Below are positions 42,403 to 57,797 of a stretch of 57,797 bases of DNA, piece after piece (within the stretch, counting starts at the first letter, position 1; the number at the start of each line of letters is the position of its first letter). Origin of the DNA: Betaproteobacteria bacterium (GTDB taxonomy: Bacteria; Pseudomonadota; Gammaproteobacteria; Burkholderiales; Rhodocyclaceae); assembly GCA_019136545.1 (NCBI GenBank), contig JAGVUA010000023.1, positions 1-57,797 of the forward strand, written 5' to 3'. The notes beneath the pieces are model-generated. The model saw only the letters and a program-made list of their open reading frames with translations, ran no database searches and was not told the origin of the DNA. The position numbers and the translations under genes were made by a program.

Positions 42403-42861
42403 CTACGCCTGGGTTGCGGCGAATCGCTGTTTCGCCGCGCGCGCTTCAACCGCCTCGGCCTTCGAATAGGCCTTTCCCGACCACAGCAGCCGATAGGCGA
42501 GCTCCTCGTTGCCGTTTTCGCAAAGTTCCAGCACCGAGCGGAATAACGGCTGGAAGGTCGGGCTGCGATGGGACGCCTCGTGTTCCTCGAACGATCGCCA
42601 GCAGGTGACGATCAGCGCCTCGCGATCTTTCAATGCGTTGTCCACCGGCTGACCCACGGTGCTGCCCTCGTTCGATATCATGCCGCTGTTGAGCAAGACC
42701 ATTCCCCCGATGAAGCCAGTGTCGGAATGATAGGTCTTGACGTTTTCGCAGAGCATGGCGACGCGCTCTTCCAGGTCTTCAACACCGTAGTTCGGTTTAA
42801 GGATCACGCGATTGACGGTGACGATGCCGTCGCCATCGAAACCAGGAATGAATCCGGACAT
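42403..42861 (-). CDS. Compact sulfur-oxygenase-reductase-like protein
   Basis: 152 residues with a strong ribosome site (GAGGAGG, 5 bases before ATG). No signal peptide is seen, so it should be cytoplasmic. From memory of the Acidianus ambivalens SOR (about 308 residues), the active-site Cys31, His86, His90 and Glu114 have counterparts here: Cys38, His94 and His98 in HEASHRS, and Glu120 in EXXY. The spacing is close, and landmarks such as the early N-x(3)-LK, GFIG (49-52) and LFR (106-108) line up. The last 20 residues have no counterpart. A generic dimeric alpha-beta barrel, such as an antibiotic-biosynthesis-monooxygenase-like protein, is the main alternative. It lies between nuo and the dsr region. 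Confidence 0.6.
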   Translation of the reverse strand: MSGFIPGFDGDGIVTVNRVILKPNYGVEDLEERVAMLCENVKTYHSDTGFIGGMVLLNSGMISNEGSTVGQPVDNALKDREALIVTCWRSFEEHEASHRSPTFQPLFRSVLELCENGNEELAYRLLWSGKAYSKAEAVEARAAKQRFAATQA

Positions 42862-42964
42862 GCTAGCCTCCTCTTGTTGTCGGCGGCATTGACGCTACTT
42901 GTCGTTGCCACGATCTAGAGATAGTGCCAGAATCGAAAAGTTCAATATAAATCAATACCATGTG

Positions 42965-43534
42965 ATGAGTATGGATGATTCCCGCTTTACCGAGGACACC
43001 TTGGCGTCGGAGGAGGTATTCGCCGGACGCTTGCTTCATGTGCATCGCGACAAGGTGCGTCTGCCTGATGGGCAGGAAAGTATCCGCGAGTGGATTGCCC
43101 ATCCCGGCGCGGTGGTCGTCGTGGCGCTCCTGGATAACGGCAAGCTGTTGTTCGAACGGCAATACCGGTATCCGCTCAGGCGTGTCTTCATCGAATTGCC
43201 GGCGGGCAAGATCGATGCCGGCGAGCACATTCTCGACACGGCTCGGCGCGAGCTCAGGGAAGAAACCGGTTACAAGGCCAAGACGTGGCGGCATCTCGGC
43301 ACCATGCATCCGTGCATCGGCTATTCGAACGAGCGCATCGAGATCTTCCTGGCGCAGGGCTTGACCTATGTCGGGCACGAACTTGACGACGGCGAGATTC
43401 TCGAAGTGATCGAACTCGGCGTCCACGACGCGCTGCTGTCGGTGCGCGATGGCGAAATCACCGATGCCAAGACGATCACGGCCCTGCTGTGGGCCGAAAA
43501 GCTTCTTTCGGGCGCGTGGCCGCTGCCGGCGTAG
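42965..43534 (+). CDS. nudF: Nudix hydrolase, ADP-ribose pyrophosphatase type
   Basis: 190 residues from the ATG at 42965; a second ATG two codons later is possible. The Nudix box GX5EX7REUXEEXGU is intact as GKIDAGEHILDTARRELREE-TGY (about 79-101). The family hydrolyses ADP-ribose or related sugar nucleotides to AMP and ribose-5-phosphate. It is divergent from the SOR-like gene with 103 bases between starts, and precedes the sensor kinase by 31 bases. Confidence 0.85.
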   Translation: MSMDDSRFTEDTLASEEVFAGRLLHVHRDKVRLPDGQESIREWIAHPGAVVVVALLDNGKLLFERQYRYPLRRVFIELPAGKIDAGEHILDTARRELREETGYKAKTWRHLGTMHPCIGYSNERIEIFLAQGLTYVGHELDDGEILEVIELGVHDALLSVRDGEITDAKTITALLWAEKLLSGAWPLPA

Positions 43535-43565: not shown

Positions 43566-44798
43566 ATGGATGCCGCTGGCGCGCCACGCTCGGCAGACCT
43601 CGAACTGGATGTCGACGACACCAACAAGCTCGAGGCGCTCAGCATCATCTCCGAAGTTTCGGCGAATCTCGCCGACGAGGACGATGTCGAGGAACTGCTG
43701 GGGCGGTTTCTCGGCACCATGCTGCGCTTGGCGCATGCCAGCGCCGGCGCCGTGCGGGTGCTGACGACCGACGGGCGTCACTTGCGACTGGTCGGCGCCC
43801 GCGGCTTGCCCGCCGAAGTCGTGGAGCGCGAGCGCGTCGTCCCGATCGATTGCGGTTTGTGCGGGCGCGCCGTACTCGACAATCGCACCCACTACGAGAT
43901 CGACCTGCACGATTGCGCTACCCGAACCGGCCACCCCTATTTCGATCGCGATTGCCAGGCCATGGTGGTCGTGCCGCTGCGCCACGGCGGACGGCTGATG
44001 GGCACCTACAACCTCTTTTTGCCCGAGCAATTCGAGCTGCCGGAGGAGGTCGTGCTGCTGTTCCGCTCGATCGGCGAGCACTTGGGCATGGCGCTGGAGA
44101 ACGCCCGCCTGAAGCGCGAGAACTTGCGCATCGCGCTCATGAACGAGCGGCAGATGATGGCCGCCGAAATTCACGATTCCCTGGCCCAGACCCTGGCCTA
44201 CATGAAAATGCGGGTCGCGCTGCTCCAGGATGCCCTGGCGGATGGCGAGACCGAGCGTGCCGGCAAGTACTCCGCCGACGTCGGCCAGGCGGTCGACATG
44301 GCCTACGGGCAACTACGGGAGCTGCTGACGCAATTCCGCAACCGGATGGACCCGCTCGGGCTCATCCATGCCTTGCGGGAGATGGCCGTCGGGTTCCAGG
44401 ATCGCACCGGCATCGTGCTGGAATTCGATAATCGCGTTTCCGATCTGCGGCTGTCGGTCGATCAGGAGGCGCAGGTCTTCTTCATCATTCAGGAGGCGCT
44501 GGCCAACGTCGTTCGTCACTCGGGGGCCACCCGGGCGCGGCTGTCGCTGGAGGGCGCCGGCGACTATTACGTCGCCACGGTGGAAGACGACGGTCGCGGC
44601 GGCCAGGGTTTCTTTGCCATCGCCAACCGTACCGGCGGCTTCGAAGAGCATCCGCGCATGCGCGACCACTTCGGTTTGGCCATCATGCGCGAACGGGCAA
44701 GAAAGATCGGCGGCCGCATCGAGGTCGCCAACCTGCCTGATCGGGGGTTCCGGGTCCGGCTGATTTTCCCCGTGATGCCCATGAGGTCCGCCGCATGA
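43566..44798 (+). CDS. Soluble NarX-type sensor histidine kinase with a four-Cys GAF domain
   Basis: 410 residues. No membrane segment is seen, so the sensor is cytoplasmic. A GAF domain (about 25-180) contains four cysteines, Cys96 and Cys99 (CGLC), Cys117 and Cys130, an arrangement suited to an Fe-S cluster or thiol switch. The HisKA_3 dimerisation helix follows, with the phospho-acceptor His203 in AEIHDSLAQTL, then an HATPase domain with N (IIQEALANVVRHS) and G (DDGRG, FGLAIMRERA) boxes. It overlaps the response regulator gene by four bases. Its place beside the dsr operon suggests a role in sulfur or redox control. Confidence 0.85.
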   Translation: MDAAGAPRSADLELDVDDTNKLEALSIISEVSANLADEDDVEELLGRFLGTMLRLAHASAGAVRVLTTDGRHLRLVGARGLPAEVVERERVVPIDCGLCGRAVLDNRTHYEIDLHDCATRTGHPYFDRDCQAMVVVPLRHGGRLMGTYNLFLPEQFELPEEVVLLFRSIGEHLGMALENARLKRENLRIALMNERQMMAAEIHDSLAQTLAYMKMRVALLQDALADGETERAGKYSADVGQAVDMAYGQLRELLTQFRNRMDPLGLIHALREMAVGFQDRTGIVLEFDNRVSDLRLSVDQEAQVFFIIQEALANVVRHSGATRARLSLEGAGDYYVATVEDDGRGGQGFFAIANRTGGFEEHPRMRDHFGLAIMRERARKIGGRIEVANLPDRGFRVRLIFPVMPMRSAA

Positions 44799-45460
44799 GC
44801 GACGACCGCATCCGCGTGCTGCTGGTTGACGATCACACCCTGTTCCGCAAGGGGCTGGCCGAGTTGCTGGAGCAGCGCGGGCAGATCCGCGTGGTCGGCA
44901 TGGCCGGCAACGGCGATGCCGCGCTCGGCCTGCTCGCCGAGACGAGCCCCGATGTCGTCATCACCGATCTCAACATGCCGCCGCAAGGCGGCATTGCCCT
45001 GTTGCGGCGCATCCGTACCGAGAACTGGCGCGGTCCGGTGCTGATCCTGACGGTTTCCGACGCGGAAGACGATCTCGCCGGCGCCATGCGCGCGGGCGCG
45101 CAGGGCTACCTGCTGAAGGACATGGAGCCGGACGACGTCGTCGATGCCGTGCAGCGCGCGGTCCGGGGCGAAACGGTAGTGGCGCCGACCATGACCATGA
45201 AACTCGTGAACCTGCTGCAGGGCGGGGCGCCGGCAACGGCGAAGGCCGACGCGCTCAAGCAGCTGACCGCGCGCGAGCGCGAAATTCTCGACTACCTGGC
45301 CCAGGGCCTGTCGAACAAGGCCATCGCCCGCGCGCTCGACATCAGCCACGACACGGTCAAGCTGCACGTTCGCCACATCCTGTCGAAACTCAATCTGACC
45401 TCGCGCGTCGAGGCCGCGGTGTTCGCCGTCGAGCAGAAGTCGATCAAGCGCGATCAATAG
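44795..45460 (+). CDS. NarL/FixJ-family response regulator
   Basis: 221 residues. The receiver domain (1-120) has the acidic pair in LLVDDHT, phospho-acceptor Asp58 in VITDLNMP and Lys108 in LLKD. The LuxR-type helix-turn-helix (about 152-212) reads LTAREREILDYLAQG, then SNKAIARALDISHDTVKLHVRHIL in two segments. It is co-translated with the upstream kinase and ends 54 bases from the convergent end of the dsr operon. Its target promoters cannot be read from this window, because the dsrA promoter is outside it. Confidence 0.92.
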   Translation: MSDDRIRVLLVDDHTLFRKGLAELLEQRGQIRVVGMAGNGDAALGLLAETSPDVVITDLNMPPQGGIALLRRIRTENWRGPVLILTVSDAEDDLAGAMRAGAQGYLLKDMEPDDVVDAVQRAVRGETVVAPTMTMKLVNLLQGGAPATAKADALKQLTAREREILDYLAQGLSNKAIARALDISHDTVKLHVRHILSKLNLTSRVEAAVFAVEQKSIKRDQ

Positions 45461-45514: not shown

Positions 45515-46291
45515 TCACGCGGATTCGGGCAACCAGGCCAGTTTTTCGTGCAGCTTGACGACTTCGCCGACGATGATCAGCGTCGGCGCCTTCAGTTTCG
45601 CGGCGTCGGCCAGGCCCGGCAACGTGGTGAGAGTGCCGGCAACGGTGCGCTGACGCGGGGTGGTGCCCTGCTGGACGATGGCGGCCGGCCAGTCCGGCGG
45701 CAAGCCGTGCTCGATCAGCTTCTCGCAAAGCAACTGCAGTCCGTGCAGGCCCATGTAGATCACCACGGTCTGGCGGCGCCGGGCCAGGCCGGGCCAGTCG
45801 AGATTCATGCTGCCATCCTTGAGATGGCCGGTGACGAACACGCAGGCCTGGGCATGGTTGCGATGGGTCAGCGGAATGCCGGCATAGGCGGCCACGCCGG
45901 CGGCGGCGGTGATGCCCGGAACGACCTCGAAAGGAATGCCCTGTTCGACCAGCGTTTCGACTTCCTCGCCGCCACGGCCGAACGTGTAGGGATCGCCGCC
46001 CTTGAGACGCACCACCCGCTTGGCGTCGCGGGCGAGGCGAACCAGCAACAGGTTGAGTTGTTCCTGGGGCAGGGCGTGGTTGCCCCGCTCCTTACCGGCG
46101 TAGATTCTCTCGACGTCGGGGCGGGCCAGCATGGCCAGAATCTCGGTGGAGACCAGATTGTCGTAAACGATGACGTCCGCCTCGCCGATCAGTTGCGCGG
46201 CGCGCAAAGTCAGCAGTGACGGATCGCCGGGCCCGGCGCCGACGAGATAGACCGTTCCGGCCTGGGCCGGCAGCGAGGTTCGCAGTGGCAT
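45515..46291 (-). CDS. cobA: Uroporphyrinogen-III C-methyltransferase
   Basis: 258 residues, SUMT alone without the CysG dehydrogenase/chelatase part. It adds two methyl groups to uroporphyrinogen III to give precorrin-2, the precursor of siroheme. Signatures are [17 protein letters not shown] (about 15-31), [15 protein letters not shown] (about 94-108) and VVPGITAA. The start overlaps the dsrR stop (ATGA). As the last gene of the dsr operon it would provide siroheme precursor for DsrAB. Precorrin-2 dehydrogenase/ferrochelatase must be encoded elsewhere. Confidence 0.93.
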
Positions 46292-46632
46292 CAGGCGCAG
46301 CTCCCACCGCAGGAACCGCAGCCGCGGGCGCGTTCGCCGCCGCAGGTGCCGTCCTTCGGATTGATGAAGATGAACTGGTATTCGCCGGGCCGCAGCTCGA
46401 CGAAGTCGAGCGTGGCATCGTCCAGCAATTCCTGGCTGCGCGGCGAGATCAACAATTGCAAACCCTCGCATTCGACGACGCAGTCGTTTTCGCGCTCCTC
46501 GTCGAAGCCCATGCCGTAAGTGATTTCACCGTCATCGTCCACTTTGGCCGCGACCCGCAAGGCCGTGCGCTCGGGTTGCGTTGCCGCGGCACTGAGGATC
46601 TGCGTGGCGGCGGCGGGGGTCACTCTGAACAT
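46291..46632 (-). CDS. dsrR: DsrR, A-type (IscA-like) scaffold protein of the dsr operon
   Basis: 113 residues with the A-type fold pattern: [21 protein letters not shown]-like core about 26-46 and [19 protein letters not shown] near 81-99. The first Fe-S ligand of IscA (Cys35) is missing, as described for Allochromatium DsrR. Unlike that protein, the C-terminus is Cys-rich (Cys97, 105, 108 and 112), and Cys51 and Cys55 are also present. The start lies 13 bases inside dsrN. DsrR supports post-transcriptional production of Dsr proteins in Allochromatium; its job here is inferred. Confidence 0.8.
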
Positions 46633-48023
46633 CGTGGGCTCTCCTGGAAACAGCCCAGCATCTTACAACGTCGGGCGAAGTCGACGAAGCGGCTTGGCCA
46701 ATCGCAGTCGCCCGTCGAGCGCAGATGCGTGTAGGACGCCAGCAGGTTCTTGTAGACGATGCCGTCGTGCGCGCCATCGATACCGTGGCCACGCTTCACG
46801 TCGTAGGCGAATTGCACATCCGCCGCGAGATGGTCGAGGCTGGAATAGTGGAATTCGTGGGCCCGCAGCGGCTTGGCCTGCTTGGCGGCGGCGCGCCAGG
46901 GATGGCGGGCGGTGGCGGCGAGGACGACATAGCCGCGGCCGACGGGTTTTTCGTGCATCGTGACGTCGCCGGGGATGACGCCGACCATCCGGCGCACCTT
47001 GCCTTGCCACGCTATGGATCGGGCGAGATACATCAGTCCTCCGCATTCGGCATAGGTCGGCAACCCGGCCTCGATGGCGGCGCGAACGCTGGCCCGCAAC
47101 GCGGTATTGGCTTCCAGCGCGTCGAGGAAGGATTCCGGAAAACCGCCGCCGATGAGCAGGGCGTCGCAGGCGGGCAGGCTTGCGTCGCGCAGCGTGTCGA
47201 ACGGCACGAGGGTGGCCCCGGCGGCGGCGAGGGCGTCGAGATCGTCGGCGTAATAAAAGCCGAAGGCCTCGTCGCGGGCGATGGCGAGCCGCAGCGGGGC
47301 GCCGGCAGCCGCCTGGCGCGGTGCCGGTGGCGGCAGCGGCGTGTCGTCACGGCTGACTTTCAGCAGCGCATCGAGATCGACCTGCGCCGCGATCCGCCCG
47401 GCGATGTCGGCGATTCTGGGCCCGGCGGCGGGCGCCTCGTTCACCGGCATCAGGCCGAGATGGCGCTCGATCAGCGCCAGGTGCTCGTTCTCGTGAATGG
47501 CACCGAGCACCGGAACGTCGGTGTAATGCTCGATGACGGCGCGCAGCTTCGATTCGTGGCGACTGCCGCCGAGTCGGTTGAGGATGACGCCGGCGATGCG
47601 GATCTGACGGTCGAACGCCTGGTAGCCGAGAATCAGCGGCGCGATGCCGCGCGTCATCCCGCGCGCGTCGAGTACCAGCACGACCGGCAGGTTGAGCAGG
47701 CGCGCCAGCGCGGCGTTGCTGTTGGCGCCGTCGAGCGCCAGGCCGTCATAGAGCCCCTTGTTGCCTTCGACAAGACAGACGTCGGCATCGTGACCGAAGC
47801 GGGCGAACTGCGCGCGAATCTCGTCGTCGGCCGACAAGAAGAAGTCGAGGTTGCGGCAGGCGCGGCCGGCGGCCAGACCCAGCCAGAGCGGATCGATGTA
47901 ATCCGGTCCTTTCTTGAACGGCTGGACGACCAGGCCGCGCGCCCGCAGCGCCGCCGCCAGCCCGATGCTGACGGTGGTTTTGCCTGACGATTTATGCGCG
48001 GCGGAGATGAGGAAACGATGCAT
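46620..48023 (-). CDS. dsrN: DsrN, siroheme amidating synthase (CbiA-like)
   Basis: 467 residues, close relative of cobyrinate a,c-diamide synthase. The N-terminal ATP-binding P-loop is HKSSGKTT (10-17). The class I glutaminase-like half carries the nucleophile Cys327 in YAECGGLMY and EFHYSS near the end. In dsr operons this protein amidates siroheme to make the siroheme amide of DsrAB. A role in cobalamin synthesis cannot be excluded, but no other cob gene of that pathway is adjacent apart from the shared methyltransferase. Confidence 0.88.
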   Translation of the reverse strand: MHRFLISAAHKSSGKTTVSIGLAAALRARGLVVQPFKKGPDYIDPLWLGLAAGRACRNLDFFLSADDEIRAQFARFGHDADVCLVEGNKGLYDGLALDGANSNAALARLLNLPVVLVLDARGMTRGIAPLILGYQAFDRQIRIAGVILNRLGGSRHESKLRAVIEHYTDVPVLGAIHENEHLALIERHLGLMPVNEAPAAGPRIADIAGRIAAQVDLDALLKVSRDDTPLPPPAPRQAAAGAPLRLAIARDEAFGFYYADDLDALAAAGATLVPFDTLRDASLPACDALLIGGGFPESFLDALEANTALRASVRAAIEAGLPTYAECGGLMYLARSIAWQGKVRRMVGVIPGDVTMHEKPVGRGYVVLAATARHPWRAAAKQAKPLRAHEFHYSSLDHLAADVQFAYDVKRGHGIDGAHDGIVYKNLLASYTHLRSTGDCDWPSRFVDFARRCKMLGCFQESPRCSE

Positions 48024-48082
48024 GATTCACCGATCCCGGAGGCGCCAAGCGCGGCGGCTGTGACCGGCGTGGCGAAAGGAAG

Positions 48083-49288
48083 TCAATCGCCCTGATGGAT
48101 CGCGGCCTGATCGAGATGCGTCAGGTCGTCCTCGGGCAGGAACTTGAGGACGCGCACGCCGACCGTGGTCATCAGGAAAGCGACCCCGACGCCGCCGAGG
48201 CCGAGCAGGATTTCCGGCAGCTTGGGCGCGTACTGCGCGACCTGGCCGTCGTAAAAGCTGCTGCTGACGATCATGCCCGGGAACAGTTCCAGCGGATAGG
48301 CCTGGCCGCCGATGATGAAGACGTAGAGGGTGAAGAACGCGCCGATCACGATCAGCAGCGCGGCCGTCATCAGGGAACCGCAACGCATGCTCAGGGAGGG
48401 CAGGTAAAGCAGCACCAGCGGCACGATGCCGCCGATCAACACCTGGCCGATCCAGAACATCGGCGCGAATTCGCTATCGACCAGCAGGAACTTCTCGAAG
48501 GATGCCTGCCGCGCGAAGTACAGGTTGGTCAGGTGGTAGACCGCGACGAAGTACAGCGTGGCGGCGACGAACAGGCCGAGCAGGTTCTTCATCCGCTTCA
48601 GCACGGTCGGGTGCAGCGTCATCTGGTTCCAGCGGAACATCGTCGCCTGGACGATCAGGAATACCGCCAGGCCCCAGGCGAACGACATGATGATGAACAT
48701 CGGCGCCAGGATCGCCGACTGGTAGGCCTGCCGCGCCACCAGGAAGCCGAAGATCGAGCCGGTGCCGGTGGTGAGGATCAGCCGCCACAGGAAGGCGGTG
48801 AGGCCGAGCGGTTTCGACCAGGGATTCATCCGCCGCTCCATGAGCGTCCAGAGATAGACGGCGACGATGCCGAACATGCCCGAATAGAGAAAGACGTTCC
48901 AGGCGAATACGGAAGTGAAGTTGTAGTGAGTCGCGGCGATGATCACGCGATCGGCGCGGCCCAGGTCGAGCATCAGCACGAACAGGCCGCCGGCCAGCAT
49001 GGCAAGCGTCAGCAGGCCCGACAGCGGCGCCCGCTTCTTGTACACCGTCTTGCCGAACACCGAGCCGATGGAGGCGACGTTCAGCACGCCGGACGCGGCG
49101 ACGATCAGAAAGATGGCGAAGACGTGCGGCATGCCCCAGACCACCTGGTTGTTCATGCCGGTGACGACATGGCCGCTGTGCTCCATGTGCAGCGCCGCCG
49201 CCAGGCCGATGGCGACGACCAGGCCGCCGACCGCGGCAAGCACGTAAAACAGCCGTTCCTCGGCGCGAGAGTGCGGGACCAGGCTCAT
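48083..49288 (-). CDS. dsrP: DsrP, NrfD-type membrane subunit of DsrMKJOP
   Basis: 401 residues with about ten hydrophobic helices. It exchanges electrons with quinone and passes them to or from the periplasmic DsrO and DsrJ. Polar and charged residues such as those in MEHSGHVVTGMNNQVVWG (about 35-52) fit a quinone pocket. It lies four bases downstream of dsrO and 59 bases before dsrN. The second NrfD protein at 6173-7381 is only distantly similar. Confidence 0.93.
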   Translation of the reverse strand: MSLVPHSRAEERLFYVLAAVGGLVVAIGLAAALHMEHSGHVVTGMNNQVVWGMPHVFAIFLIVAASGVLNVASIGSVFGKTVYKKRAPLSGLLTLAMLAGGLFVLMLDLGRADRVIIAATHYNFTSVFAWNVFLYSGMFGIVAVYLWTLMERRMNPWSKPLGLTAFLWRLILTTGTGSIFGFLVARQAYQSAILAPMFIIMSFAWGLAVFLIVQATMFRWNQMTLHPTVLKRMKNLLGLFVAATLYFVAVYHLTNLYFARQASFEKFLLVDSEFAPMFWIGQVLIGGIVPLVLLYLPSLSMRCGSLMTAALLIVIGAFFTLYVFIIGGQAYPLELFPGMIVSSSFYDGQVAQYAPKLPEILLGLGGVGVAFLMTTVGVRVLKFLPEDDLTHLDQAAIHQGD

Positions 49289-49292
49289 GATG

Positions 49293-50024
49293 TCAGATTC
49301 CTTGGTAGCGAACGCCGGTGTTCAGCTTCAGGTCGGCCCGGACCTGCGTGGTCGCCGCGCTGGCGGCGCGACGGACGATCTCGCTGTTCGGGTCTTCAAG
49401 GTCGCCGAAGAGCATCGCCTTTTCCGGGCAGGCTTCGACGCAGGCAGGCAGCCGACCCCGGTCGATGCGCTGGACGCATAGCGTGCAGGACTCGACGCAG
49501 CCGATGCCGCGCGGCACTTCGGGATTCTGCTGGGTGAGCGGCTGATGGACGAAGGAACGCGCCTTGTAAGGGCAGGCCATCATGCAATACCGGCAGCCGA
49601 TGCAAATGTGGCGATCCACCAGCACGATGCCGTCGGCGCGCTTCATGGAGGCGCCGGTCGGGCAGACATCGACGCAGGGCGGCTCGGCGCAGTGCTGGCA
49701 CATCATCGGCAGCGAATACTGGCGGTCGCTCTGGGGATCCTTGATATCGATCTTCCGGATCCACTGCGATGCCTGGCGCGGATCGGCCACCGTCTCGTTG
49801 ATGCCGTTTTCGGTCGCGCAAGCCGATACGCAGACGTCGCAGCCCTTGGCGCACTTGGTGGTGTCGATCAACATGCCCCAGCGCTGGCGCTTGGTGGCCG
49901 GCTGGCCGGCCGCCCGCTGCGATTGCGCCTGCGCGACCTGCATCAGGTGTACGCCGGGGGCGATGGCAACCAGCCCGAGGCCGGCCGTGGCGGCGAGGAA
50001 GCCGCGGCGATCGTTGTGGCTCAT
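49293..50024 (-). CDS. dsrO: DsrO, periplasmic four-cluster ferredoxin
   Basis: 243 residues with a twin-arginine signal (DRRGFLA, residues 5-11, then a hydrophobic run). Four cysteine groups follow: CAKGCDVCVSAC, CQHCAEPPCVDVCP, CIGCRYCMMACP and CTLCVQ with CVEACPEK, each binding [4Fe-4S]. It bridges DsrP and the cytochrome DsrJ. The start overlaps the dsrJ stop by four bases. Confidence 0.94.
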   Translation of the reverse strand: MSHNDRRGFLAATAGLGLVAIAPGVHLMQVAQAQSQRAAGQPATKRQRWGMLIDTTKCAKGCDVCVSACATENGINETVADPRQASQWIRKIDIKDPQSDRQYSLPMMCQHCAEPPCVDVCPTGASMKRADGIVLVDRHICIGCRYCMMACPYKARSFVHQPLTQQNPEVPRGIGCVESCTLCVQRIDRGRLPACVEACPEKAMLFGDLEDPNSEIVRRAASAATTQVRADLKLNTGVRYQGI

Positions 50025-50407
50025 GGCTTGGCTCCGGTGGCCTTGAATCCCGTCTTGGGCTGGTGGCAGTCCCAGCAGTCCAGTTTCACGGCCGCATAGG
50101 CATGGCAGCTTGCGCAGAAATGATCCTTGCCCAGCACGGAGCCGGTCGACTTGCTGGCATGGCACTCGATGCACTCGTTGAGGCTTGCCTTTTCGCCGCG
50201 AATGCCCTGGCGCAGCGTCCTGTCGCGCTGATGCTTGAGCATGTCCATGTGGTTGCGGCGCATCTCCTCGGCCGGCGCGATGCACGCGCCCTCGTTGGCG
50301 ATCCTGATGGTCGGCTTGGGAACGCCGTCGGCCGCCCCGACGGGGCCGACCAGCAAAGTCAGCCATGACAGGACGCCGAGCGCAAGCAGTGTTGCCGCAC
50401 GTCGCAT
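50021..50407 (-). CDS. dsrJ: DsrJ, triheme cytochrome c
   Basis: 128 residues with a Sec signal peptide ending near Ala26 (GPVGAAD). Three CXXCH sites lie at 79-83, 98-102 and 111-115. Cys42 (GACI) corresponds to the cysteine proposed as axial haem ligand in Allochromatium DsrJ, which gives one haem His/Cys ligation. It is the periplasmic cytochrome of DsrMKJOP. The ATG at 50407 is chosen because the longer frame runs into dsrL. Confidence 0.93.
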   Translation of the reverse strand: MRRAATLLALGVLSWLTLLVGPVGAADGVPKPTIRIANEGACIAPAEEMRRNHMDMLKHQRDRTLRQGIRGEKASLNECIECHASKSTGSVLGKDHFCASCHAYAAVKLDCWDCHQPKTGFKATGAKP

Positions 50408-50421
50408 GGGAAATTTCCTCG

Positions 50422-52404
50422 CTATTCGCCCAAGCCCATCTGGATGTAGCCGGTCGGGCAGACATCGTGGCAGATGTGGCAGCCGATGCACTTGTCGTAG
50501 TCGGTGGCGACATAGCGGCCGGTGGTCGCCTCGGTTTTCTTGACCTTGTAGACGGCGGTCTGCGGGCAGTAGACGACGCAGTTGTCGCATTCGAAGCACA
50601 GGCCGCAGCTCATGCAGCGCTTGGCTTCGGCGATCGCCTGCTTCTCGTCGAGCGGGTCGAGGCGCTCTTCGAAATTGCCGAGCGCCTCTTCCTTGGTCAG
50701 GTGCGTGATGATGCGCTTGTTGCGCGGCGTGTACTGAAAGTGGCCGAGGAACAGTTCGTCGTGGGGAATGACGTAGCGATCGGAGCGGTTCTCGAAGTTA
50801 TGCACCGCGCCCTTGGATTCGCTGGTGCCGCGGATCGGCTCCTTGATTTCCTCGAAGCCAACGCCTTTCTCGACATACTTGCGCATGAGGTCGAAGGTGT
50901 GCACGTCGATCTTCGGCCGCCGGCCGACCTCGTGTCCGGCCAGATACTGGTCGATGCCATCGGCGGCGATGGCGCCGTGCCCGATGGCGGTGGTCAGGAG
51001 ATGCGGGCGGATCACGTCGCCGCCGGCGAACACGCCGGGCTTGTTTTGCACCTGATAGTTCCGGTCGGCGGTCAGGCCGCCCTTGCCGTTGTCGAACTCC
51101 TCCAGGCCGGTGAAATCGACGGCCTGGCCGATGGCGGAGACGATCAGGTCGGCGGGCAAGTCTTTCTCGCTACCCGCGATCTGCTTGATCTCCAGTTTGC
51201 CGCCGGCCATCTTGGCTTCGCACTGCGCCACCTTCAGCGCGGTGGCGCGGCCATCGGCGCCCTTGACGACGCCCACCGGCATCCAGCCGCCCATGATCTC
51301 GATGCCCTCGGCCTGCGCATGCTCGATTTCATGCTTGCTGGCCAGCATCTTGTCGGTGGTGAACACCGAAGTCAGCACGACTTCGGCGCCTTGGCGCGCC
51401 GAGACGTCGGCGACATCCTGCGCCATCTTGCCGGCGATGGCGCCTTCCCAGTCGGTCGGCTTGGCGTCGGTGATATGACCCAGGCGACGGGCAACCGTGG
51501 CGACGTCCATCGAAGTGTCGCCGCCGCCGACCACCACGACGCGCTTGCCGACATGGCGCAGGCGACCGTCGTTGAAGGCCTTCAGGAAGGCGGTGGCGGT
51601 GACGACGTTGGGGGCATCGGTCGCGTTCTTGTCGCCCTCGATCGGCAAGGACCGGCCAGCCTGGGCGCCCAGGCCGAGGAAGACGGCATCGAAGTCCTCG
51701 CGGAGCTGCGCCAGGGTGACGTCGGTGCCAATGCGCGTCTTGGTTCTGGCGACCACGCCGAGGTTGAGAATGCGCTGGATTTCGGCATCGAGCACGTCGC
51801 GCGGCGTCCGATAGCCGGGAATGCCATAGCGCATCATGCCGCCCAGGAATTCGTGCTCGTCGAAAATGGTGACCGCATGGCCCTTGAGGGCCAGCTGGTA
51901 GGCCGCCGACAGGCCGGCTGGCCCACCGCCGATGACGGCGACCTTCTTGCCGGTGAGCTTCTCGGGCTTCTTGAATTGCAGATTGTTCTGAATGGCGTAT
52001 TCGCCGAGGAAGTGTTCAACTGAATTGATGCCGACGTGGTCCTCCACCTGATTGCGGTTGCAGCCCGTCTCGCACGGCGCCGGGCAGACGCGGCCCATCA
52101 CCGCCGGCAGCGGATTGGCCTCGGTGAGGCGGCGCCAGGCGTATTCCTGCCACGGCATGACCGGCTTGCCGTCGGCACCCATGGGCGGCTTCTCGATGCC
52201 GCGCACGATATTGAGGTAACCGCGAATATCCTCGCCCGACGGGCAGGAACCTTGGCACGGCGGCGTGGATTGAATGTAGGTCGGGCACTTGTGCGACCAG
52301 CTGGCCTGGAAAATACTGTCCTGCCAGCGCTTGACCTTGGTGTCGCCGTCCTTGAAGCGGCGGAAAGACAGTTTGGTGTCCTGGACTTCGGTCGTGAGTG
52401 ACAT
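50422..52404 (-). CDS. dsrL: DsrL, NAD(P)H:acceptor oxidoreductase of sulfur oxidation
   Basis: 660 residues, GltD-like iron-sulfur flavoprotein. An N-terminal cysteine region (about 40-120), FAD motif VIGGGPAGLSAA (about 155), NAD(P) motif VVVGGGDTSMD (about 300) and two C-terminal ferredoxin motifs, one in CMSCGLCFECDNC and one in CIGCHICHDVCP, are visible. DsrL accepts electrons from DsrAB during sulfite formation and reduces NAD(P)+. Its presence is a strong marker for the oxidative direction of the pathway. Confidence 0.94.
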   Translation of the reverse strand: MSLTTEVQDTKLSFRRFKDGDTKVKRWQDSIFQASWSHKCPTYIQSTPPCQGSCPSGEDIRGYLNIVRGIEKPPMGADGKPVMPWQEYAWRRLTEANPLPAVMGRVCPAPCETGCNRNQVEDHVGINSVEHFLGEYAIQNNLQFKKPEKLTGKKVAVIGGGPAGLSAAYQLALKGHAVTIFDEHEFLGGMMRYGIPGYRTPRDVLDAEIQRILNLGVVARTKTRIGTDVTLAQLREDFDAVFLGLGAQAGRSLPIEGDKNATDAPNVVTATAFLKAFNDGRLRHVGKRVVVVGGGDTSMDVATVARRLGHITDAKPTDWEGAIAGKMAQDVADVSARQGAEVVLTSVFTTDKMLASKHEIEHAQAEGIEIMGGWMPVGVVKGADGRATALKVAQCEAKMAGGKLEIKQIAGSEKDLPADLIVSAIGQAVDFTGLEEFDNGKGGLTADRNYQVQNKPGVFAGGDVIRPHLLTTAIGHGAIAADGIDQYLAGHEVGRRPKIDVHTFDLMRKYVEKGVGFEEIKEPIRGTSESKGAVHNFENRSDRYVIPHDELFLGHFQYTPRNKRIITHLTKEEALGNFEERLDPLDEKQAIAEAKRCMSCGLCFECDNCVVYCPQTAVYKVKKTEATTGRYVATDYDKCIGCHICHDVCPTGYIQMGLGE

Positions 52405-52424
52405 GGCGTTCGTCTCCGGAAATG

Positions 52425-53978
52425 TTATTGCTCGTTGCCGAGGCGGATGGCGGTGCTGACCAGCTGGTGCACGCCGCCCACCAGGCCCATCTTGAAGCCG
52501 TAGTAGGGCAGCACCTTGGTGAATTGAGCCTTGCAGATGGCGCAGATGGTGGCCATGAAATTGACGCCATGCTCATCCACCACGCGCTTGAGCGCTTCCA
52601 TGCGCGGCAGAGCGCCCTTGACGCGGATGTCCATCAGCTCGTCGGTGAGCAGTCCGCCGCCGCCGCCGCAGCAGAAGGTCTTCTCGCGGGTGGTGTCGGG
52701 CGCCATCTCGAAATAGTGGTTGGCGACCGTCTTGATGATGTGGCGCGGAATGTCGAACTGTCCGCCGGGCGTGTCGCCCATGCGCGAAGCGCGCGCGACG
52801 TTGCAGGAATCGTGGAAAGTGATGATGCGATTGTCATTGGCCGACTTGTCGAACTTCAGGCGGCCCTGCTGGATGAGATCCCAGGTGACTTCGCAGATGT
52901 GCGAGGGCTGCTTGTAGTTCGGGTCGAGCTGCTTCTGCAGTTCGATGGCGAAAGGATCGTTGCCGCCGGCGCCGATGCCGGTCAACGTGTTCCAGAAGGC
53001 ATAGGCGACACGCCAGGCATGACCGCATTCGCCGACCACGATGCGCTTGACACCCAGTTCCAGCGCGGCTTCGCGCACGCGCAGGGCGATCTTGCGCAAC
53101 TGGTCGTAGTTGCCGATGAACATGCCGAAGTTGCCGGCTTCCGAAGCCTTGGTCGATAGCGTCCAGGAAATGCCGGCGGCGTGGAAGACCTTGCCGTAGC
53201 CGATCAGGCTCTCGATGTGCGGCTCGGCGAAGAAGTCGGCCGAGGGCGTGACCAGCAGCACTTCGGCGCCCTGTACGTCGAGCGGATACTTGACGTCGAC
53301 GCCGGTGTCTTCCTTGACGTCCTCCTCGAGGCCGCTCAGGGTGTCCTCGAGCGCGGGGCCGGGCAGACCGAGGTTGTTGCCGATCTTGTGCACCTTGCCG
53401 ATGATTTCGTTCGAGTACTTCTGGCCGTAGCCGACCGAATCGAGGATTTCGCGGCCGGCCATGGTGATCTCGGCGGTGTCGATGCCGTAGGGACAGAACA
53501 CCGAGCAGCGCCGGCACTCGGAGCACTGGTAGTAATAAGTGAACCACTCGTCGAGCACTTCCCTGGTCAGGTCACGCGCGCCGACCAGATTCGGGAACCA
53601 CTTGCCGGCCGGCGTGAAGTAGCGGCGATAGACGCTGCGCATCAGTTCCTGGCGGGCCACCGGCATGTTTTTCGGGTCGTTGGTGCCGATGAAGTAGTGG
53701 CACTTGTCGGTGCATGCGCCGCAATGCACGCAAGCATCGAGATAGACTTTCAGCGACCGGTAGCGCTCGAGCAGTTCGCCCATGCGGCCGATCGCCTTGT
53801 CATGGGTTTCCTGCCAGTTCTCGGCCAGCTTGCCGGGAAAGCCGATGGCTTCCTGGATCTTGTCGCTGGCGATATAGGAGCGAATGTTTTCGGTAGCGCC
53901 GACCCGAATCGCCGGGACGGTGGGAAACTCCCGGAAGGCCGGGGCTTCAACCTTGGCTTTGGCGTCCGGGGCGGCCAT
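52425..53978 (-). CDS. dsrK: DsrK, HdrD-like catalytic subunit of DsrMKJOP
   Basis: 517 residues, cytoplasmic. Two ferredoxin motifs, CVHCGACTDKC and CSECRRCSVFC, lie in the N-terminal third. CCG-type segments (HDSCNVAR, FCCGGGGG and ICAICK) carry the non-cubane active-site cluster shared with heterodisulfide reductase HdrD. It acts on DsrC in its disulfide or trisulfide form. The start is the ATG before AAPDAK, one base after the dsrM stop. Confidence 0.95.
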   Translation of the reverse strand: MAAPDAKAKVEAPAFREFPTVPAIRVGATENIRSYIASDKIQEAIGFPGKLAENWQETHDKAIGRMGELLERYRSLKVYLDACVHCGACTDKCHYFIGTNDPKNMPVARQELMRSVYRRYFTPAGKWFPNLVGARDLTREVLDEWFTYYYQCSECRRCSVFCPYGIDTAEITMAGREILDSVGYGQKYSNEIIGKVHKIGNNLGLPGPALEDTLSGLEEDVKEDTGVDVKYPLDVQGAEVLLVTPSADFFAEPHIESLIGYGKVFHAAGISWTLSTKASEAGNFGMFIGNYDQLRKIALRVREAALELGVKRIVVGECGHAWRVAYAFWNTLTGIGAGGNDPFAIELQKQLDPNYKQPSHICEVTWDLIQQGRLKFDKSANDNRIITFHDSCNVARASRMGDTPGGQFDIPRHIIKTVANHYFEMAPDTTREKTFCCGGGGGLLTDELMDIRVKGALPRMEALKRVVDEHGVNFMATICAICKAQFTKVLPYYGFKMGLVGGVHQLVSTAIRLGNEQ

Positions 53979-53979
53979 G

Positions 53980-54702
53980 TCAGTTTTTCTCCAAGCTGGC
54001 CGCCCACGGCGCCAAGTGGCGCGTCTCACGCGGGTTGTCGACCTGGTTGCGCGAAGGGCTGAAAAATATCCCTGGGGCGTGCAGCAGCTTGCTGAACGGG
54101 AACACGATCATCAAGGTCGCCACCAGCAGCAGATGAACATAGAGGAGCGGGTCGTCGGGCAGCGGCTGGACGTCGAAACGCATCAGGCCCAGGAAAAACG
54201 CCTTCACGCCGACAATGTCGGTGTGCATCAGAAATTTCATGCCCAGGCCGCTCAGGCCGATCAGCAGCAGCAGGACCAGCATCAGGTGATCGGAGACCGT
54301 CGAGATGTAGCGGATGCGTTCGACCAGGAAGCGCCGCGCCCAGAGACCGCCGAGTCCGGCGACCATGGCGAAACCCGCATACATGCCGAACGGCTGGGCG
54401 AAGGCCACCCACGACCAGACGGGTTCGGTGAAGTAGCGCAGGTGGCGGACGAGGACCAGCGCCAGGCCGAAGTGGAACAAGGCCGCGAATATCCAGATCC
54501 AGAGGTTGCCCTTGAACAGGCTTTCGAAGAACACCACCTCGCGGAACATCCGGAACGCCACGCCGCCGCGCGTCGTCGGTGCCGGCGTCGTCGGAATCGA
54601 CAAGGGCGCCGGCGTGCGGGCGAAATCGAGAATCTTGTACGCCAGCCCCACGACGAACAAGGCCGTGGCGGCGTAGAAGAGGAGTGCGAAGAAAGATGTC
54701 AT
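53980..54702 (-). CDS. dsrM: DsrM, NarI-like cytochrome b subunit
   Basis: 240 residues with five or six membrane helices and histidines for two haems b (for example in LFHFG, VRHLRY, SDHLM and the HLLL helix). It couples DsrK to the quinone pool across the inner membrane. The ATG before TSFFALL is chosen; the longer frame enters the 117-base gap after dsrC. Confidence 0.93.
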   Translation of the reverse strand: MTSFFALLFYAATALFVVGLAYKILDFARTPAPLSIPTTPAPTTRGGVAFRMFREVVFFESLFKGNLWIWIFAALFHFGLALVLVRHLRYFTEPVWSWVAFAQPFGMYAGFAMVAGLGGLWARRFLVERIRYISTVSDHLMLVLLLLIGLSGLGMKFLMHTDIVGVKAFFLGLMRFDVQPLPDDPLLYVHLLLVATLMIVFPFSKLLHAPGIFFSPSRNQVDNPRETRHLAPWAASLEKN

Positions 54703-54819
54703 GTCGGCGGCTTCAAAAGCATGCGGTCGCGATCGCAGGCGTCGGACGGCCGGCCACGGCCCCCCGACAGGCGCACCCTCGCACCCGCCGGTACCGCGAC
54801 GCCGCAAAGAACGTTGGGG

Positions 54820-55152
54820 CTAGACGCAGCCGGTGGGCTTCGGCAGTCCCGCGATCTTGCACGCCTGCTTGGCCGGTCCATACGGGAACAGTTCGTACAG
54901 ATACTGGCTGTTGCCTTTTTCCGGCCCCAGCTTCTTGCCGATGGCCTTGGTCAGCACGCGCACGGCCGGGGCGATCTGGAACTCGTTGTAGTAGTCGCGC
55001 AGAAAATTGATGACTTCCCAGTGCTGTTCGGTCATGGTGACACCTTCCTGTTGCGCCAGGAAAGTGCCGACTTCCTCGTTCCAGTCGCCAAGATTGATCA
55101 AATAGCCTTCTTCGTCGACTTCGTAGGACTTGCCGTTAACTTCGATAGCCAT
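54820..55152 (-). CDS. dsrC: DsrC, sulfur carrier protein
   Basis: 110 residues. The flexible C-terminal arm has both functional cysteines, Cys98 and Cys109 (C-x10-C, ending GCV), which form the disulfide or trisulfide handled by DsrAB and DsrMK. It receives sulfur from DsrEFH. The body carries the typical GYLINLGDWNEEV and LRDYY segments. A 117-base gap to dsrM contains no clear terminator. Both cysteines separate it from TusE-like relatives with only one. Confidence 0.96.
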   Translation of the reverse strand: MAIEVNGKSYEVDEEGYLINLGDWNEEVGTFLAQQEGVTMTEQHWEVINFLRDYYNEFQIAPAVRVLTKAIGKKLGPEKGNSQYLYELFPYGPAKQACKIAGLPKPTGCV

Positions 55153-55189
55153 TTTGGGTTTCTCCTCTAAGTGAGTGATCGTGCTGCGT

Positions 55190-55486
55190 TCAGAGCCAGG
55201 ATTGGCAAGTGTCGTATTCGGCCACCAGGTCGACGAAGCCGGCGTAATCGACCAGCGTGACGCCATCCATGGCGCGGTCGGCGATGCCACGCGCTTCCAT
55301 GTCCGGACCCAGCGCGAAGAGCTTGAACTTGCCGCCGGCGGCCTTGAGCTTGGCCTCGCCTGCGCTGCCCCGGGTTGCCGCGTAGACCCCGTCCTCGATC
55401 AGCAGGATGGCGCCGGGCTCGGCCGATTGCAGGCAGGCGTCGAGCGAACCGCGGTCGAGGGGGGACTTGTTGACGATATTCAGCAT
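55190..55486 (-). CDS. dsrH: DsrH, sulfur relay subunit (TusB family)
   Basis: 98 residues from the ATG with GGGAGAG upstream. Together with DsrE and DsrF it forms the DsrE2F2H2 hexamer that relays sulfur to DsrC. Cys18 corresponds roughly to the conserved Cys20 of Allochromatium DsrH, and Cys94 lies near the C-terminus. The gene follows dsrF by 10 bases. Confidence 0.92.
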   Translation of the reverse strand: MLNIVNKSPLDRGSLDACLQSAEPGAILLIEDGVYAATRGSAGEAKLKAAGGKFKLFALGPDMEARGIADRAMDGVTLVDYAGFVDLVAEYDTCQSWL

Positions 55487-55496
55487 GATCTCTCCC

Positions 55497-55859
55497 TCAG
55501 AACGACAGGACCACGTCCTGCTCTTCCATCCGCTTGCCGAGTTCGGCGCGCGACATGATTTCCACCGGAACGCACAGGTCATCGGCGGTCAGGCCGCGTG
55601 CGGCCAGCGATTCCTGGTCGACGTAGAGCTTCGTGACGTCGTAGTCCTCGAGCGCGCCGTAGGTCTTCTCGAAGCCCTTCATCTCGATGCCTTTGGTCTG
55701 ATGGCCTTTCTTGAGCTGATAGACGCCGTCGTCGAGGAAGGCGAGCGACACATCCTGCTCGAAGGCGGCGGCGATCAGCACCACCTCCAGGGACTCCAAC
55801 GCGTAGACGGTGCCGTAGGGCGCCTTGCGGTTCACCATCATGAATTTCTTGATTGTCAT
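55497..55859 (-). CDS. dsrF: DsrF, sulfur relay subunit (TusC family)
   Basis: 120 residues, DsrE-like fold. Signatures are the RKAPYGTVYALESLEVVL segment (about 11-28) and the C-terminal LCVPVEIMSRAELG. It is structural within DsrEFH and lacks the catalytic cysteine of DsrE. It lies 12 bases after dsrE. Confidence 0.93.
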   Translation of the reverse strand: MTIKKFMMVNRKAPYGTVYALESLEVVLIAAAFEQDVSLAFLDDGVYQLKKGHQTKGIEMKGFEKTYGALEDYDVTKLYVDQESLAARGLTADDLCVPVEIMSRAELGKRMEEQDVVLSF

Positions 55860-55871
55860 GCGGTTTTCCCT

Positions 55872-56264
55872 TTAGTCGCCGAACGTGACCAGACGATCCG
55901 ACTGGATGCCGGCTTCGATCAACTGGCCGAGACCGGAAATGCGGAAGCCCGGCGCCAGATTCGTGGCGTCCTTGCCATTGCGCTTGGCCTCGCCTTCGTC
56001 GACGATGCCGCGGCGCTGGGCGGCGGCCACGCAGACCACCAGGTCCAGCTTGTTTTCTTCGGCCAGCTTCGACCAGCGGTTGACGATGTTGCGGTCGTCC
56101 TGCGGCGGCGTGGTCAGGCGCGTCGCGTTGTTCACGCCGTCGTGGTAGAAGAAGATGCGGAAAATCTCATGGCCCTTGGCCAGCACCGACTTGGCGAACT
56201 GATAAGCCGAGTCCGATGCCTGGTGCGTGTAGGGGCCTTCGTTGATGAGGATGGAAAACTTCAT
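55872..56264 (-). CDS. dsrE: DsrE, catalytic sulfur relay subunit (TusD family)
   Basis: 130 residues with the active persulfide cysteine Cys78 in VVCVAAAQRRG, the same number as in Allochromatium DsrE. It binds sulfane sulfur and passes it to DsrC. DsrEFH is known only with the oxidative Dsr pathway, so this supports sulfur oxidation rather than sulfite reduction. It follows dsrB by 13 bases. Confidence 0.95.
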   Translation of the reverse strand: MKFSILINEGPYTHQASDSAYQFAKSVLAKGHEIFRIFFYHDGVNNATRLTTPPQDDRNIVNRWSKLAEENKLDLVVCVAAAQRRGIVDEGEAKRNGKDATNLAPGFRISGLGQLIEAGIQSDRLVTFGD

Positions 56265-56277
56265 CGTTCCCTCGTGA

Positions 56278-57354
56278 TCAGAAGCGGATATGGGCCGAGG
56301 CGTTCAGGTTGGCCCGGCCGCCGCGCCAATCGTCGATCATGTACTTGGTGAAGGGCAGGCCGGTCTTTTCGAAAAACCGCGGCCAGCCGATCCGGTCGAT
56401 CCAGTCGGCCATGCGCTCCCACGGCCGCGCATCTTCCTTGTACGTCATCAGGATCTTCTTGACGACGGCATTGACTTCCGGCCAGCGCGGCGCATTGTTG
56501 GGCAGACCGGCGGCAACCATCTTGTGGAAAGTCGGCTTGCTGCGGGCATTGGAATTCTTGCCGCCGACCCAGATGGCGAGCTTGGAATGCTCGGGATCGT
56601 TGATCTGCATGGGCGGGCAGGGCGGGTAGCAGGCGCCGCAGCAGACGCATTTCTTCTCATCCACCTCCAGCGTCGGCTTGCCGTTCACCAGCGCCGGGCG
56701 GATCGCCGCGACCGGGCAGCGCGCGACGACCGCGGGGCGTTCGCAGACATTGGCCACCAGGTCGTGATTGATCTTCGGCGGCTTGGTGTGCTGAATGACC
56801 ACGGCGATGTCGGCCTGGCCGCCGCAGTTGATCTCGCAGCACGAGGTGGACAGGCGGACGCGGTTCGGCATCTGCTCGTTCTTGAACTCTTCATAGAGCT
56901 CGTCCATCATCGACTTGACGACGCCCGAGGCGTCGGTGCCGGGAATGTCGCAATGCAGCCAGCCCTGGGTGTGCGCCACCATCGACACCGAATTGCCGGT
57001 GCCGCCCACCGGGAAGCCTTCGGCTTCGAGCTTGGCGATCAGCGGCGCCACTTTCGCTTCTTCGGAAACCATGAACTCGATGTTCGAGCGAATGGTGAAG
57101 CGGACATGGCCTTCCGCGAACTGGTCGGCGATGTCGCACAGCTTGCGGATGGTGTAAACGTCCATCTGGCGCTGCGTGCCGGCGCGCACCGACCAGACCT
57201 CGCCGCCGGTCTTCGAGACATGGTGCAGCACGCCGGGGCGCGGACGATCGTGTGTTTTCCAGTTGCCGTAGTTGGCGGCCAGTGTCGGGTGCAGGAACTT
57301 CTTGCTGTCGGGTACGCCGCACTCGTCGGCACGGCGTTGGGGGGCTTGCGTCAT
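56278..57354 (-). CDS. dsrB: Dissimilatory (reverse) sulfite reductase beta subunit
   Basis: 358 residues. The siroheme-[4Fe-4S] cysteines are in STSCCEINCGG (171-177 region) and ANVCERP/ARCPV (about 204-213). An inserted ferredoxin domain has CVCCGACYPPCP (236-247). With DsrA it catalyses six-electron conversion between sulfide-level sulfur and sulfite, here probably oxidising DsrC-bound sulfur. The gap to dsrA is 108 bases and holds a strong hairpin, which is unusual because the two subunits are equimolar. Confidence 0.96.
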   Translation of the reverse strand: MTQAPQRRADECGVPDSKKFLHPTLAANYGNWKTHDRPRPGVLHHVSKTGGEVWSVRAGTQRQMDVYTIRKLCDIADQFAEGHVRFTIRSNIEFMVSEEAKVAPLIAKLEAEGFPVGGTGNSVSMVAHTQGWLHCDIPGTDASGVVKSMMDELYEEFKNEQMPNRVRLSTSCCEINCGGQADIAVVIQHTKPPKINHDLVANVCERPAVVARCPVAAIRPALVNGKPTLEVDEKKCVCCGACYPPCPPMQINDPEHSKLAIWVGGKNSNARSKPTFHKMVAAGLPNNAPRWPEVNAVVKKILMTYKEDARPWERMADWIDRIGWPRFFEKTGLPFTKYMIDDWRGGRANLNASAHIRF

Positions 57355-57410
57355 CGCTTGTCTCCAGGAAGGTCGCTCATTGTCGCTATCGGAGTAGGGT
57401 CTCGGGCCTG

Positions 57411-57449
57411 GCGCAAAGTCAGGCGTGGCGTCGCGCCTGACTTTCGCGC
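57411..57449 (-). other. Strong hairpin in the dsrA-dsrB gap
   Basis: Arms AAAGTCAGGCG (57415-57425) and CGCCTGACTTT (57434-57444) are perfect complements of 11 bases with an 8-base loop. With a one-base bulge (57445) the outer GCGC arms add four more pairs. No T run follows on the minus strand, so it is not a standard terminator. It could protect or process the mRNA, or be a small repeated element. Confidence 0.6.
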
Positions 57450-57462
57450 AGTTCGGAGAATG

Positions 57463-57797
57463 TCAGGCAGCCGCCTTGCGGGCGTTGGCCTTGGCCACTT
57501 CCTCGTCCCAGTCGTCCATGCGCACGTAGGGATTCATGCGCGGACTCGACACCATGTTCGGATCGATGTCGAGGCCGATGCCTTCGAGGAAGTTCACCAG
57601 GCCGATCCGTTCGATCATTTCGCCGGTGCGTTCGTGCTCAAGCGCATTTTCAGCGAAGAAGTCGACGATGGTCTTGGCCAGTTCGACCAGCTTTTCGTAG
57701 TCTTCGTCTTTCTTGAGATCGAAGAACGGCACGACGACAGTGCCCATCAGATCGCCGATCTTGAGGGTGCGCTTGCCGCCGATGAGAATGGTGGCGC
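57463..57797 (-). CDS. dsrA: Dissimilatory (reverse) sulfite reductase alpha subunit, 3' end
   Basis: Partial: only the last 110 residues are in the window and the gene continues past its right edge. The visible part begins ATILIGGK, continues LKIGDLMGTVVVPF, and ends in an Ala/Lys tail. These are typical of the C-terminal region of DsrA after the ferredoxin domain, which includes the MIERIGLVNFLE helix. The siroheme ligands lie outside the window. It is the first gene seen of the dsr operon. Confidence 0.92.
   Translation of the reverse strand, partial: ATILIGGKRTLKIGDLMGTVVVPFFDLKKDEDYEKLVELAKTIVDFFAENALEHERTGEMIERIGLVNFLEGIGLDIDPNMVSSPRMNPYVRMDDWDEEVAKANARKAAA

Follow-up and report, generated by a model that had tools for sequence, protein, structure and literature searches.

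What does a protein do that keeps the active-site residues of sulfur oxygenase reductase (SOR) in half the length? A gene for such a protein is found in a Rhodocyclaceae contig (the whole stretch analyzed, 57,797 nucleotides, is called the window here). The sequence-only reading of this DNA compared its product with the N-terminal half of SOR, and the sizes agree: 152 residues against ca. 310 in SOR, which has two fused domains, the C-terminal one being absent from the short protein. We refer to it as half-SOR. No description of a half-length SOR was found in the open-access literature, which is what the search covered.

A conserved gene, its relatives and its neighbors

Translation of the ORF gave the 152-residue product as first described, from an ATG at 42861 (Table 1), and the earlier residue numbering (Cys38, His94, His98, and Glu120) was correct (codons in Table 1). 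The gene is real and strongly conserved, since its dN/dS against eight relatives is 0.065 to 0.22 and 478 stretches of named genomes encode relatives of it.

Table 1. Features of the window around the half-SOR gene
Feature	Position	Strand	Evidence
Half-SOR gene, type A, 152 aa	42403..42861	-	ORF and translation, purifying selection, family alignments
Shine-Dalgarno AGGAGG, 5 nt before ATG	42867..42872	-	Sequence; good quality
Asn17 codon, matches invariant Asn of SOR N-terminal domain	42811..42813	-	26/26 members; 4/4 SOR-N; 1/30 ABM
Cys38 codon, counterpart of SOR Cys31	42748..42750	-	26/26 members; profile-profile and joint alignments
His94 codon, counterpart of SOR iron ligand His86	42580..42582	-	Alignments
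His98 codon, counterpart of SOR iron ligand His90	42568..42570	-	Alignments
Cys114 codon, aligned with one of two later SOR cysteines	42520..42522	-	26/26 members; 4/4 SOR-N; 3/4 SOR-C; 1/30 ABM
Glu120 codon, counterpart of SOR iron ligand Glu114	42502..42504	-	26/26 members; 4/4 SOR-N; 3/4 SOR-C; 0/30 ABM in joint alignment; unpaired by hhalign
NUDIX hydrolase, start approximate, divergent neighbor	42962..43534	+	Pfam PF00293; same cluster in 32/81 loci
GAF-HisKA_3 sensor kinase, NarQ/NarX-like	43566..44798	+	Family matches; same cluster in 27/81 loci
NarL-type response regulator	44795..45460	+	Family matches; same cluster in 17/81 loci
dsr operon, partial dsrA to uroporphyrinogen methyltransferase, with IscA-like gene	45515..57797	-	Family matches, dsrA end

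A survey of 199 genomes of the same family, free of any motif filter, yielded 27 matches, one of which (L027) was a helicase and was dropped before counting. The remaining 26 half-SORs, the one in the window included, fall into type A (19 members, 74 to 100% identity) and type B (7 members, 35 to 39% identity over the alignment). GGAG stands shortly ahead of the start in 15 of the 19 type A genes. None of these 26 genomes had both types; one type per genome is nevertheless not a rule, as “Candidatus Thiodiazotropha endoloripes” (G621; L111 and L123) combines a half-SOR of type A with one of type B. Among the 478 loci of named genomes, the best 80 share at least 70% identity, come from alpha-, beta-, and gammaproteobacteria, among others, and bear titles such as Rhodocyclaceae, Thiobacillus, Sulfuricella, Chromatiales, Thioalkalivibrio, Thiodiazotropha, and Magnetovibrio. 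The same search found half-SOR in Halochromatium and Thiohalocapsa, which are largely anaerobic phototrophs, and a tblastn search against plasmids gave no match. Of 34 carrier genomes drawn from these best 80 of 478 loci, 3 also have a full SOR that scores above the cut-off. One metagenome-assembled genome of Thioalkalivibrio paradoxus (G599; L108 and L122) has two full-length SOR genes together with a half-SOR. A PF07682 search of 398 genomes of the phylum matched nothing, neither the gene of the window nor any control, and is silent on the absence of SOR.

By eye, the half-SOR gene comes after the end of a nuo operon, and NuoL/M/N-type genes recur nearby in 27 of the 81 loci; of the 80 loci fetched, 56 had 3 kb of flanking sequence on either side. 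We sought a conserved operon around half-SOR across the 81 loci and did not find one; among the 33 loci listed besides the window, most of them from outside the Rhodocyclaceae, there was no widely shared neighbor. The loci bearing the sensor kinase are titled Rhodocyclaceae, Rhodocyclales, other Betaproteobacteria, or plain Proteobacteria. In its N-terminal part, the kinase of the window has a C-G-L-C-G stretch, and paired cysteines are also seen in the kinase beside a type B gene in genome G017 (L170, 14780-15946). There, with names given by eye, the type B gene lies between the methyltransferase at the end of dsr and sat, adjoined on the same strand by a regulator and a GAF kinase. Family matches in the dsr operon of the window cover DsrK, DsrO, DsrP, DsrC, a DsrM-like gamma subunit, a sulfite reductase subunit, and proteins of CobB, methyltransferase, and IscA type; further genes, judged by eye, are presumably dsrE, dsrF, dsrH, and dsrL.

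Sequence and predicted fold against SOR and ABM proteins

SOR (PF07682) was the only Pfam match of the window protein and thus the best family, although the score (E = 0.0064, 15.8 bits) stays below the curated cut-off of 25; 19 of the 26 members match this family at E values up to 10 (best, 0.0015). Because of its length, the missing second domain, and the Pfam cut-off, we do not file half-SOR as a SOR. Searched against the PDB with the family profile, the seven top sequences were all SORs (best, 6m35, E = 3.3e-4), with His94 and His98 landing on His86 and His90 of StSOR; with the window protein as a single-sequence query, no SOR appeared at E values up to 10. In profile-profile comparison, the probability was 79.9% for the SOR N-terminal domain (SOR-N), 64.5% for the ABM family, and 0.2%, i.e., no match, for the C-terminal half (SOR-C). 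The score with SOR-N was 37.1 (maximum of 22.2 in 200 column shuffles, 14.0 with the reversed profile), so that the similarity proposed earlier goes beyond chance. As the score with ABM, 32.1, also exceeds all 200 shuffles (maximum, 20.3), the family is related to both, on sequence somewhat nearer to SOR-N. The window protein itself had no match to ABM (PF03992, curated score 23.1 bits) at E values up to 10, and no ABM protein was found in its genome at E ≤ 0.001. Contrary evidence, it had been stated, would be a better match to the profile of an unrelated alpha-beta-barrel family; on sequence none is seen, though by a modest margin, while by predicted fold ABM-type proteins come first.

The model of half-SOR is ferredoxin-like (mean pLDDT, 86.6), and most of the 50 Foldseek matches listed (of 141 at E ≤ 0.001) are barrel proteins of ABM type; IsdG and IsdI are included, and there is no SOR among those 50. 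Both point to a predicted ferredoxin-like fold of ABM type; the affinity to SOR is favored by sequence and not by fold. In a tree of 55 rows, half-SOR and SOR-N share a branch (support, 90/90), which was recovered at 83/73 in a reduced tree that leaves out six shared residue columns and six long ABM rows. Long branches meet there between half-SOR and SOR-N, the alternative grouping of SOR-N with SOR-C was not rejected (p, 0.29), and the tree support is left unstarred. The tree thus joins half-SOR to the SOR N-terminal domain with moderate, not decisive, strength.

In the StSOR study (PMC7398979), His86, His90, and Glu114 are reported as iron ligands, replacement of any of them or of Cys31 by alanine made activity undetectable, and alanine at Cys101 or Cys104 lowered it ca. 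10-fold. Cys38, His94, His98, and Glu120, which the sequence-only reading had paired with these four essential residues, are retained in all 26 same-family members, and the invariance extends to type B. Homologues without the HxxxH pair and the Glu, which would have spoken against that reading, were thus absent from this set. Together with Asn17 and Cys114, the four are invariant in 26/26, 29/29, and 61/61 aligned half-SORs (overlapping sets; one alignment, A4, took 60 of the best 80 named loci). The pattern also holds in 80/80 loci of the named-genome set, where HxxxH is partly there by construction, as HE[AKQ]SH was one of the two search patterns; the same-family, phylum, and Thioalkalivibrio-family surveys are free of this bias. 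The Cys101/Cys104 pair of SOR is absent from half-SOR, and one invariant cysteine, Cys114, aligns with a SOR cysteine.

SOR (solved structures, e.g., 6m35 and 2cb2) is the best sequence relative, with counterparts in half-SOR of its Cys31, His86, His90, Glu114, and one later cysteine. A joint MAFFT alignment comprised 22 rows of type A, 7 of type B, 4 of SOR-N, 4 of SOR-C, and 30 of ABM, the last being 30 of 44 places listed in the ABM search. All six residues are present in 4/4 SOR-N rows. In the ABM rows, Asn was found in 1/30, Cys38 in 0/30, His94 in 6/30, His98 in 2/30, Cys114 in 1/30, and Glu120 in 0/30 (4 of the 30 rows having gaps in that column). Glu120 and Cys114 are not specific to SOR-N, because 3 of the 4 SOR-C rows show Glu and Cys in those columns. 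Aligned with hhalign, Cys38 and the HxxxH pair match their SOR positions; Glu120 does not fall on the Glu of SOR there, although MAFFT places it so. ABM/IsdG proteins have in common with half-SOR the predicted fold, the Foldseek matches, and, in IsdG, an Asn, a Trp, and one His in corresponding positions, but the 30 controls have neither its Cys nor its Glu, and profile score and tree put it nearer to SOR-N. Within residues 61 to 70, half-SORs have a near-invariant S-N-E-G-S stretch (S63, E65, G66, and S67) in a region of low model confidence. It is missing from the two SOR-N rows among those listed of the joint alignment and may be a lid or a docking site.

Occurrence with dsr and Hdr-like genes

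All 26 same-family carriers have dsrA, and half-SOR was found in none of the 151 genomes without it. The dsrA gene itself is present in 48 of the 199 genomes (44 above the cut-off, 4 partial), 22 of which lack half-SOR. The sample of 398 genomes across the phylum, which has two genomes in common with the previous one, gave a similar result, with dsrA in 9/9 carriers, half-SOR in 0/345 genomes without dsrA, and 44 of 53 dsrA genomes lacking half-SOR; a fragment with stops in G331 was a false match and was dropped. The association with sulfur oxidation suggested from this one locus is thereby borne out, although the genomes are related by descent and the tallies are descriptive. The suggested location near dsr stands for some genomes only; in 7 of the 26 carriers of the same family, dsrA is on the contig of half-SOR and no more than 30 kb away, and half-SORs were also found in genomes that lack dsrA. 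In Table 1 of PMC11267869, Alvin_1688, an ABM-annotated gene of Allochromatium vinosum, is down on pyrite, like most dsr genes.

Strict dependence on dsr had to be rejected. A dsrA gene was found in 32 of the 34 carriers drawn from the best 80 of 478 named loci; the two exceptions are G602 and Thioalkalivibrio thiocyanoxidans ARh2 (G628), the latter with Hdr-like genes. In the family of this Thioalkalivibrio, 33 of 47 genomes carry half-SOR, 13 with dsrA and 20 without. HdrB-like genes are present in 20/20 of the dsrA-less carriers, and the four carriers without them have dsrA (HdrB, TIGR03288, served as a proxy for Hdr-like genes, and all matches were below its cut-off). PMC6382920 reports Hdr-like genes in all dsr-negative Thioalkalivibrio of that study. 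One system or the other is thus found in 33/33 carriers, which says little, because 12 of the 14 non-carriers also have one; this family shows only that dsr is not required. Half-SOR is not tied to rDsr alone.

Possible functions

Judging from the conserved site, half-SOR probably works with the catalytic residues of SOR. That it is a cytoplasmic single-domain relative of SOR-N, with a metal site and a persulfide cysteine, and processes sulfane sulfur seems to us an evenly balanced proposition. The protein would probably fold as one ferredoxin-like domain, and its homodimer would form a barrel of the kind that SOR builds from its two fused halves. Each subunit would probably bind one mononuclear iron (or another metal) through His94, His98, and Glu120. 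Cys38 would probably accept sulfane sulfur and carry it as a persulfide, assisted by Cys114. The most likely reaction, in the cytoplasm of rDsr- or Hdr-bearing bacteria, would be oxygenation or disproportionation of sulfane sulfur drawn from a persulfide or polysulfide, and the presence with both systems suggests a step that they share. A more far-reaching reading, somewhat less likely than not, has half-SOR as an undescribed iron-dependent enzyme of the cytoplasm that oxygenates or disproportionates sulfane sulfur. It would be a homodimer of single domains, similar to the precursor that gave rise to SOR by duplication and fusion, and would act beside rDsr and Hdr-like systems in many sulfur-oxidizing proteobacteria. 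A strictly O2-dependent role is spoken against, since Halochromatium and Thiohalocapsa carry the gene. Persulfide dioxygenases of the ETHE1 type have a metallo-beta-lactamase fold; half-SOR resembles them in the proposed substrate class alone, and the window protein had no ETHE1-type match in Pfam.

The main rival, possible but doubtful, is that half-SOR carries or senses persulfide and, in spite of its SOR site, does no oxygenation, the sulfane sulfur on Cys38 being held near the metal and handed to a Dsr or Hdr-like relay or signaled to the neighboring two-component system. Such a protein may act at the shared step, since it occurs with rDsr or Hdr-like genes, and it would suit the largely anaerobic phototrophs. 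The recurrence of the kinase and regulator clusters (Table 1) and the presence in G017 of a regulator and a GAF kinase next to the type B gene also favor it. However, the kinase cluster is in 0 of the 33 loci listed besides the window, and a pure carrier could do without a metal site built from three residues, whereas all three (His94, His98, and Glu120) are invariant here.

A lesser and rather improbable role is that of a haem or siroheme handler of IsdG/ABM type, linked to dsr through siroheme. The IsdG triad is given as Asn6, Trp66, and His76 in PMC4835899, and half-SOR has Asn17, Trp88, and His98, with the same Trp-to-His spacing of 10; the Foldseek matches, a weak ABM match in 10 of the 26 members (best E, 0.01), and the ABM profile score above all shuffles agree with this. 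However, the same Asn, Trp, and His are found in SOR-N, Cys38 and Glu120 are in none of the ABM controls, and the SOR-N score is the higher one. Finally, a decayed, truncated, and inactive SOR would account for the half length and for the score below the SOR cut-off, but is hardly credible given the dN/dS values, the invariant site residues, and the identity of at least 70% across the best 80 of 478 loci, which reach from alpha- to gammaproteobacteria.

In sediments, lakes, and soda lakes, sulfide and sulfur are to a large extent oxidized by bacteria with rDsr or Hdr-like systems. For the question of how sulfane sulfur is handled around these machines, half-SOR offers one gene and one protein. 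With the catalytic residues of SOR, it was found in our surveys only beside an rDsr or an Hdr-like system; being almost restricted to intracellular sulfur oxidizers, it is a good candidate for an overlooked part of the pathway. The chemistry of SOR, or an ancestral form of it, would also be seen here in a protein that lacks the second domain.
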